Shown one piece after another: positions 15,422-28,784 of a stretch of DNA of 59,728 nt (the stretch's first letter is position 1; each line of letters begins with the position of its first letter). The DNA is taken from IMG/VR virus record IMGVR_UViG_3300042914_003096, positions 1-59,728 of that record. The stretch is one strand, 5' to 3'. The notes beneath the pieces are model-generated. The model did no database searches. It saw only the letters and a list, made by a program, of their open reading frames with translations, and was not told where the DNA came from. The DNA comes from a virus. Both the position numbers and the translations under genes were made by a program.

Positions 15422-16477
15422 ATTTGAAACCTAAAGGTGATGAAAGACACTCGGAGTCAAATGTAAAAAAGAAAAACGTTCTTTGTTTTATAGGCCGACC
15501 GAAAGGTTGACACACATAAAAAAAGTGAATTAACACCTCCCTTTCTTTAAGTGTTTAAATTATTAGGTCAATGGGCCGTGTATGGTCCATCCACTTCGGT
15601 GGCTTCTAACCTTCGGGTTAGTTGAAAATAAACTACGAAAGTAGGATAAAGTGAATCAGAAGTGTAACTGATTTGCGTCTTGGGAAACCGAGGTCGAGTA
15701 CACAAGCGGGATACCGTTTAATCTTTAGTACCGAGGGCGACGCTGTAGGGAAAGTGGTTAGATGATTGGGCGATGTGGGTCGTCTGATTGAGGTGGGAAC
15801 ACCAATAGGAATAACCCGTAGGAATTTTGCAAAAAATGTGGTTATCCAATCATATTATTGCGAGTTCCAATATTAAAGGAGACTTAAAACCGAAAGGTAT
15901 GTTGATGTACAGGTGGTGCTGTTATTAACCTTGACCGTTCCCCACCAAGGGATTGATCACGAAGTAGTCTTAAAATATGGAGATGGGGACATTTCAGAGA
16001 GTAGTTGAGTATCGACTCGTTCAAAAGATGGGTTGGCTCGTGGGCGGACCACTACTTTCACAATCCACGACACATAACTTATGGAAACTATTAATTCCCA
16101 AATTAAAAAGAGCATTAAGGAAAAGTGTCCGTCAGGTTTGAATGAAAGGTGACTACATAGTAATGAGCCGTTCATTGCACACAAAGATCCCAAGTCGATG
16201 TGTAATTATCCGAAAAACCTTTAGTCCCGCAAGGACGAACTGGGGAGGCATCCTCGGAAAGAGTCAAGTAAGGTGAGAGTAGTTCAAACCTCAAGGAGTG
16301 GTTCACCTAAATAACCGTCACTGAGAAATACTTCTCAAAAGGAAGTGGATAAGAGTAGAATAAATAATGACTCTAAAGGTTCTCAATAAAACGTGTAATC
16401 TCAGCGTTCTTTTTAGGTTTAATCTTATAAGAAAAAAAAATTGATGGATGACGTGAAATTTGTTATCCATTTTTTTG
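15422..16477 (+). ncRNA. Large structured non-coding RNA, about 1.05 kb
   Basis: No plausible gene occurs between 15366 and 16508, although the rest of the genome is tightly packed. The stretch is visibly richer in G and C than its surroundings and full of stable hairpins. Examples are ACATTTG/CAAATGT closing a small junction (15419-15464), CGACC-GAAA-GGTTG (15496), CCAC-TTCG-GTGG (15590), CTAACC-TTCG-GGTTAG (15606), CTAC-GAAA-GTAG (15632), GCGTC/GACGC (15675/15738), GGTG-GGAA-CACC (15792), TCGTGG/CCACGA (about 16038/16066), AGGTGA/TCACCT (about 16270/16303) and GAGAA-ATAC-TTCTC (16323). UUCG and GNRA tetraloops recur. A TAnnTTTG promoter precedes it and an intrinsic terminator closes it. Size, phage setting and nearby tRNAs recall the ornate RNAs GOLLD and ROOL, but I cannot confirm membership. 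Confidence 0.75.
16444..16477 (+). terminator. Terminator of the large RNA
   Basis: Stem ATGGAT...ATCCAT, extended by AC/GT with an internal mismatch, is followed by seven T residues. Confidence 0.75.
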
Positions 16478-19490: not shown

Positions 19491-19604
19491 GTATTAAAAT
19501 ATTTATATATAACCTCTCAGGGTATTTGGTACTTTAACCCTTTTGTCTAATACACGGCCGTAAATGCAATAAAAATAAAGTATCTCGGTAGTTAAGTAAC
19601 AGAA

Positions 19605-19668
19605 GAAATCATATGGTGTAATTGGTTAGCACAATGTTGGTATGGGTTTGAATCCCATTATGGTTTCT
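19605..19668 (+). tRNA. tRNA-like RNA lacking an anticodon arm
   Basis: A 9-bp acceptor GAAATCATA/TATGGTTTC encloses a D-arm (GTG, loop with TTGG, CAC) and a T-arm ATGGG-TTTGAAT-CCCAT. Only a 9-nt linker joins them where the anticodon arm should be. A T-run directly after the 3' end may terminate transcription. It cannot decode codons. The acceptor/T stack resembles the tRNA-like domain of tmRNA, but no tmRNA body is present. Confidence 0.6.
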
Positions 19669-19685
19669 TTTTTTGTATTTAATCA

Positions 19686-19693
19686 TATTTATT
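19686..19693 (+). promoter_or_regulatory. TATTTATT late-type promoter motif
   Basis: The box ends 3 nt before the ATG at 19697 and decides that start over the ATG at 19673. Confidence 0.5.
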
Positions 19694-19696
19694 ATT

Positions 19697-20641
19697 ATGA
19701 CAATGGATACAAAAAAATTATTCAATATTGCAAAATCATATTCTGAATTTTTAAAAGATAATTACGATGAAAACTTTTTTCGTATGGATCGTATTGCACA
19801 TATACTAAAGTCAGACGATATGGCAAGAGTATATAAACAAATGATCCCAAACAAAATAGATTTAGTTAAGTTTGTTTATATCACATATTTTCTTCTTAGA
19901 GGTTATTATAAGGTAGAAGAAATCATTAAAATGGTTAATAATATATATGTTGTTGAAATTGAATATTATGATGATCAAGCATATATAAACGTTCAATGTG
20001 ATAGTTGTAATGGTAGTGGTGAGGTGGAATGTAATAATTGTGATGGTGATGGTGAAGTTGATTGTAGATCTTGTGATGGTGATGGACAACACGATTGTTA
20101 CTATTGTAATGATGGAAAAGTGGAATGTAAATACTGTGATGGTGAAGGTACTGAAACAGAAGAAGATGATGAAGGTGAAGAAATAGAAGTTGAATGCGTT
20201 CACTGTGAAGGTTCAGGTCAAGAAGATTGTAGAGAATGTAGTGGTATGGGTAATTTTGAATGTGATAGTTGTAATGGAAAAGGAACAGAAACGTGTCAAT
20301 ATTGTAGTGGAAATGGTAATGAATATTGTGATGAATGTGGTGGTAACGGTGAAGTAGAAAGTAGTGAACAATATTATATGGTAACTCTTAAAAGAATTGC
20401 AGTTATTGGAAATAAAGTAAAAGAAATAGAAAATAAAACTATGACTATTGACGAGTATAATGAATATGAATTTGAGGATGGTTATATGGATTATGATTTT
20501 ACTTTAAGATCTAGAGTATATACTAGTGATGATACAGTAGATGATGAAAGATATAGCAATGAAATGGATGAAGATTTTGTTGTAATACATAGTGTATATA
20601 AATTAGAAGGAATGGATCCGTCCGTTATTTCAAATGTGTGA
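19697..20641 (+). CDS. DnaJ-type zinc-finger repeat protein (ten CxxC units)
   Basis: After a 90-residue helical N-terminus the protein carries about ten consecutive CxxC units, nine of them CxxCxGxG-like (CDSCNGSG, CNNCDGDG, CRSCDGDG, CKYCDGEG, CVHCEGSG, CRECSGMG, CDSCNGKG, CQYCSGNG, CDECGGNG). One is altered, CYYCNDGK. Ordinary DnaJ has four. There is no J-domain or DnaJ C-terminal domain, but an acidic C-terminal domain follows. The array should bind about five Zn ions and act as a protein- or RNA-binding scaffold. Late-type promoter upstream. Confidence 0.85.
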   Translation: MTMDTKKLFNIAKSYSEFLKDNYDENFFRMDRIAHILKSDDMARVYKQMIPNKIDLVKFVYITYFLLRGYYKVEEIIKMVNNIYVVEIEYYDDQAYINVQCDSCNGSGEVECNNCDGDGEVDCRSCDGDGQHDCYYCNDGKVECKYCDGEGTETEEDDEGEEIEVECVHCEGSGQEDCRECSGMGNFECDSCNGKGTETCQYCSGNGNEYCDECGGNGEVESSEQYYMVTLKRIAVIGNKVKEIENKTMTIDEYNEYEFEDGYMDYDFTLRSRVYTSDDTVDDERYSNEMDEDFVVIHSVYKLEGMDPSVISNV

Positions 20642-28670: not shown

Positions 28671-28784
28671 AGTCAGGTGGCGGAATTGGTAGACGCAAAG
28701 ATGTTGTGAGTTGGTAGGTAATAACTACTTGGATAGTATCCACACTAGAACTCTCAAATACAGGTTCAAATCCTGTCCTGACTA
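28671..28784 (+). tRNA. Leu-like tRNA with inserted helix around the anticodon arm
   Basis: Acceptor AGTCAGG/CCTGACT, D-arm GCG-GAATTGGTAGA-CGC and T-arm ACAGG-TTCAAAT-CCTGT are regular. The middle is about 30 nt too long. TTGTGAGTT/AACTCTCAA (one mismatch) encloses a small anticodon-like arm GGTAG-GTAATAA-CTACT and a variable-like hairpin GGAT-AGT-ATCC. The anticodon reading is uncertain. 114 nt in total. Confidence 0.6.

Follow-up and report, generated by a model that had tools for sequence, protein, structure and literature searches.

Mimicry of transfer RNA outside translation is known from few RNAs, among them tmRNA, the bacterial Y RNA YrlA, viral 3′ ends and mascRNA. YrlA RNAs (Rfam RF02553), found in bacteria and phages, are modular non-coding RNAs that join a domain mimicking the D and T arms of tRNA to another domain with a different role (PMC8394870). 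YrlA is connected through its anticodon-like stem and lacks a free acceptor end. The tRNA-like domain of tmRNA has no anticodon arm and is fused to extra RNA, and in the MALAT1/mascRNA arrangement a tRNA-like element lies 3′ of a longer non-coding RNA and is cut out by RNase P. Phages also carry canonical tRNAs (RF00005) and, near tRNA arrays, the GOLLD RNA (RF02032), a nanocage RNA of unknown function proposed to hold tRNAs (PMC12286853).

Here we describe a previously uncatalogued RNA of about 165 bases, carried by a group of large environmental phages, whose 3′ end copies the shape of a tRNA but has no anticodon arm and so cannot decode. Its conservation shows that it is a working RNA and not a broken tRNA gene, although its function is inferred. 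Like a canonical tRNA it has acceptor, D and T arms, but it has U56 instead of C56, an acceptor of 10 bp or more, and no CA after the acceptor. As in YrlA, a tRNA-like domain is joined to another domain, but here the acceptor is open and 3′-terminal, the anticodon arm is absent, and the other domain lies 5′ of the mimic and is not closed by the two ends of the RNA. Compared with tmRNA, the D arm is well formed, ARAGORN reported no tmRNA and no tag reading frame was called in the window (the whole 59,728-nucleotide stretch of viral DNA analysed), and no member has a G3-U70 pair or an encoded CCA. As with mascRNA, the element lies 3′ of a longer RNA, but here the acceptor runs into a U-tract. 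It is unrelated to GOLLD in sequence and structure, but lies on the same strand and follows the same promoter-like box. Literature searches, limited to open-licence papers, found no description of such an RNA.

Results

An anticodon-less tRNA-like element

An earlier note, made from the sequence alone, had described a tRNA-like RNA with well-formed acceptor, D and T arms, a 9-bp acceptor and only 9 nt in place of the anticodon arm. This observation was confirmed, with two corrections: the acceptor is longer than 9 bp, and the element is the 3′ part of a larger conserved RNA (Table 1). The acceptor has at least 10 bp, and the minimum free energy structure extends it to 13 bp. ARAGORN did not detect the element. 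The Rfam tRNA model did, at 41.5 bits (gathering score 29, E = 2e-5 for the window), with the anticodon-arm positions of the model absent. No other Rfam 15 family, including YrlA, matched 19500-19760 at E values up to 1. The folding z-score of the single sequence was only -1.8, and the proof that the element is not a chance fold therefore comes from its relatives.

Table 1. Positions of the RNA, its parts and other features in the window
Position	Strand	Feature	Observations
15076	+	ATATTTATA box	At the start of the 1.4-kb gap holding the GOLLD core
15997-16407	+	GOLLD RNA, Rfam core	333 bits; a neighbour, not part of the element
19499-19507	+	ATATTTATA promoter-like box	5 nt before the conserved RNA
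19513-19675		Conserved unit	About 163 nt
19513-19522	+	5′ hairpin CCU-CUCA-GGG	Pairs invariant
19529-19583	+	5′ domain
19529-19536/19576-19583		Outer helix of 5′ domain	3 pairs with compensatory changes; 94% of cells paired
19543-19546/19566-19569		Inner helix	Invariant, no covariation to support it
19551-19553/19560-19562		Inner helix	Invariant, no covariation to support it
19555-19560		Palindrome CGGCCG in loop region	Invariant
19591-19600	+	Small hairpin GUUA/UAAC	100% of cells paired; two pairs with compensatory changes
19604-19668	+	Mini-tRNA	No anticodon arm
19604-19613/19659-19668		Acceptor	AGAAATCATA with TATGGTTTCT; 10 bp
19614-19615		tRNA positions 8-9	TG
19616-19619/19629-19632		D stem	GTGT with GCAC
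		D loop	AATTGGTTA, containing G18G19
19633-19641		Connector	AATGTTGGT, 9 nt
19642-19646/19654-19658		T stem	ATGGG with CCCAT
		T loop	TTTGAAT
19666-19674	+	U-tract following the acceptor	Terminator-like; scan found 1 site vs 0.2 in shuffles
19706-20641		Protein with many CxxCxGxG-like zinc-finger repeats	DnaJ central-domain type, below the Pfam cut-off; directly downstream of the RNA
28671-28784		tRNA-Leu-like gene, 114 nt	42 bits; missed by ARAGORN; extra paired sequence around the anticodon arm, perhaps an intron or an inserted helix
31839-32026		Group I intron match	80 bits; among the tRNA genes

Relatives of the RNA

To find relatives, IMG/VR was searched with sequence patterns. Fifteen other contigs with the same element were obtained (L006-L015, L018-L020, L116 and L117), giving 16 records in all, none of which has an anticodon arm. 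One of these searches used only the upstream part of the RNA as query. All 13 contigs that it found carry the armless tRNA and none a full one, so the joint inheritance of the two parts is not an artefact of the query. The mini-tRNA pattern was not found in any of 84,980 cellular genomes.

Other searches gave no further members. The downstream protein at 19706-20641, used as bait for relatives, gave no hit. BLAST hits in Lak phage B7 and MT837648 were not tRNA-like, and LR756500 is an ordinary tRNA-Arg. Weak hits of a full-length model in L010, L019 and LR756501 were coding sequence (read by eye) and an ordinary tRNA. A search for gp23 in the family records gave no signal, but neither did its controls. 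One window protein has its best relatives in uncultured phages of 634 kb and 642 kb, which carry GOLLD but not this RNA, as far as seen.

Conservation and covariation

Conservation begins just after an AT-rich box and runs to the U-tract. Over this unit the relatives are 82-90% identical to the window, against 57-68% in flanks of 200 nt; these values leave out L116 and L117 and were obtained without a chance level for the aligner. The consensus structure has 42 pairs. On 16 sequences 97.8% of cells were paired, 13 pairs showed changes on both sides (0/500 shuffles), and the covariation score was 0.273 compared with 0.152 in shuffles. Controls in which the pairing was slid gave 45-55%. In a 14-sequence alignment of the tRNA-like part alone (14 pairs), all 182 acceptor, D and T cells were paired. 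As related sequences inflate shuffle tests, the slid controls and the different pair types in the acceptor (G-C, A-U and C-G at one position) carry most weight.

The acceptor continues beyond 7 bp, and the outer pairs also show compensatory changes (alignment columns 93-94), although some members have a bulged or mismatched base in it. The mini-tRNA keeps A14, G18, G19, U54, U55 and A58, so that a tertiary elbow is plausible, but has U56 in every member. Selection by the search patterns explains U56 only for the first and last tRNA scans, and in part; one other scan left that base free, and the upstream-only search did not use the tRNA part at all.

Two further structures were considered and rejected. 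A closing stem UCUCAG/UUGAGA for the 5′ domain, examined in a register nearly that of the intended stem, paired 76% of cells, against 100% for the GUUA/UAAC hairpin that uses the same bases. A kissing-loop dimer through the CGGCCG loop would be consistent with the invariant palindrome, but cofold energies cannot prove it.

Genomic context

The ATATTTATA box occurs 14 times on the + strand, against 2.65 expected (Markov-2), and once on the - strand. Most copies lie 3-21 nt before an ATG, one precedes the GOLLD region and one precedes this RNA. An equivalent ATATTTAT-type box precedes the RNA in most relatives, and the strand bias follows the orientation of the RNA in other contigs. We read the box as a phage promoter, which is an inference. 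GOLLD is also present in seven other records of the family; it lies 3.1 kb upstream of the RNA in the window and 4-6 kb upstream in other records where both are seen.

The sequence downstream of the RNA differs between contigs, so it is not the leader of one particular gene. Large tRNA arrays follow downstream. Intact tRNA-Gln genes coexist with the RNA in the window, L010, L013, L014, L019 and L020, and the Gln-type D arm of the mini-tRNA is therefore not the remnant of a lost, only tRNA-Gln.

Discussion

The interpretation offered in the earlier note was partly supported. The element is a real, non-decoding tRNA-like RNA, and similar mini-tRNAs do exist in related phages. Homologues pointing to a decayed tRNA, which the note had named as a refutation, were looked for, and every relative was found to lack the anticodon arm and to keep the stems by compensatory change. 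The note had missed that the mini-tRNA is the 3′ domain of a longer RNA with its own promoter-like box and terminator-like end. Its proposals of recognition by RNase P, CCA-adding enzyme or EF-Tu, and of a decoy, primer or cap role, remain suppositions. The lengthened acceptor, its fusion to a U-tract and the lack of an encoded CCA argue against ordinary tRNA maturation.

We tentatively favour a stand-alone phage non-coding RNA, probably transcribed from a phage promoter at the ATATTTATA box. In this view the 5′ domain carries the specific function, probably through its invariant loops, while in the 3′ domain the D and T loops form a tRNA elbow and the lengthened acceptor helix doubles as the transcription terminator stem. 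The mimic would not be matured into a translation tRNA, and would most likely serve as a docking and stability module, recognised by host factors that bind the tRNA elbow (RNase P, TruB/TrmA-type modification enzymes, tRNA-handling nucleases), so protecting or localising the 5′ domain. The anatomy, conservation and covariation, the absence of the anticodon arm in all members, the strand-matched box, the terminator-like end and the synteny with GOLLD are established by the analysis. Expression of the RNA, the three-dimensional elbow, the docking and stability role with its putative partners, and the 5′ domain as effector are inferred from sequence alone; the modest single-sequence stability and the invariance of the inner helices of the 5′ domain count against this reading. 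An RNA that keeps the elbow and drops the decoding arm gives a natural test of what the elbow alone recruits in bacteria, and its company with GOLLD gives a second handle on the open question of GOLLD function.

The main alternative, which we consider possible but less likely, is a processing signal, in which host RNase P, and perhaps RNase Z, would cut at the mini-tRNA, giving the 5′ domain a defined 3′ end and releasing the mini-tRNA as in MALAT1/mascRNA. RNase P reads the acceptor plus T stem and the elbow. Loss of the anticodon stem-loop alone is tolerated by human nuclear RNase P (PMC4919922), and the mini-tRNA does lie 3′ of a conserved RNA domain. A mimic that docks elbow-binding factors cannot be told from a processing signal by sequence alone, which counts against the favoured reading. 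Against processing, the acceptor helix continues 3 or more bp past the normal cleavage point, with compensatory changes in those outer pairs, leaving no single-stranded leader at the canonical site, and no CCA or CA follows the acceptor, although most of this phage's real tRNAs have CA there. A decoy that titrates a tRNA-binding host factor (RNase P, a modification enzyme or a tRNA-targeting defence enzyme) would fit the preserved elbow without a decoding part, and phages with large tRNA arrays, but seems unlikely: it does not explain the equally conserved 5′ domain, and anticodon nucleases would presumably not recognise the RNA.

Membership of the YrlA class bound by a Ro60 protein is very doubtful, despite the shared modular design and the fact that Microbacterium phage Zooman, which has a similar mini-tRNA, encodes a Ro60/TROVE protein. 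The YrlA model does not match the RNA, and the YrlA topology is the opposite one. No TROVE gene was found in the window or in 11 family records, all of which are fragments, by a search that worked in Zooman and in a control genome. The RNA works like YrlA or the tRNA-like domain of tmRNA in using tRNA mimicry as a module, but by the tests made it is a member of neither. A decayed tRNA gene or chance fold is contradicted by the compensatory changes, the 16 records, the conserved 5′ domain and the diverged flanks, although isolated armless tRNAs can arise by deletion.

Armless tRNAs in other phages

As a control for random loss of anticodon arms, IMG/VR was scanned for armless tRNAs with the commonest D arm, TAGCTCAG. 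This gave 60 contigs with 45 distinct cores, unrelated to the window family; 45 of the 60 had at least 6 of 7 acceptor pairs, with many different acceptor sequences. Some recur in cellular genomes with the sequence of a viral contig, which points to prophages (Corynebacterium, Streptococcus, Lactobacillus and Microbacterium), but many other genome hits are assembly gaps (N) or have unpaired acceptors. Several of the viral elements lie in gaps between co-directional genes, as in contigs L046 (before a small-terminase-like gene), L080 and L042, annotated by eye. Armless tRNAs are thus not unique to the window family, and acceptor pairing alone does not prove function, because a freshly deleted tRNA would also keep it. 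This does not weaken the family-level covariation and the conserved 5′ domain. It is possible, though this remains speculative, that anticodon-arm-less tRNAs are a recurrent, functional class of phage RNA modules, occurring as the 3′ domain of this GOLLD-associated RNA, in Zooman, and as free-standing mini-tRNAs in intergenic gaps of dozens of temperate phages, all exploiting the tRNA elbow without decoding.

The Zooman element (OK040793, 4997-5051) is unannotated, lies between two tRNA-Phe genes and has a Gln-type D arm, with a hairpin just upstream; a single armless tRNA of this kind cannot be told from a relic. The weak YrlA-like candidates of this phage, below the family's cut-off, lie elsewhere, next to its Ro60 gene. 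Six Bacteroidota chromosomes among the genome hits (Spirosoma and Larkinella; L129, L132, L136, L140, L152 and L158) share a D-arm/T-arm pair joined by a short connector, such as AGCAGGAAAACGCA, but the flanks do not form an acceptor, and these are not the same thing.
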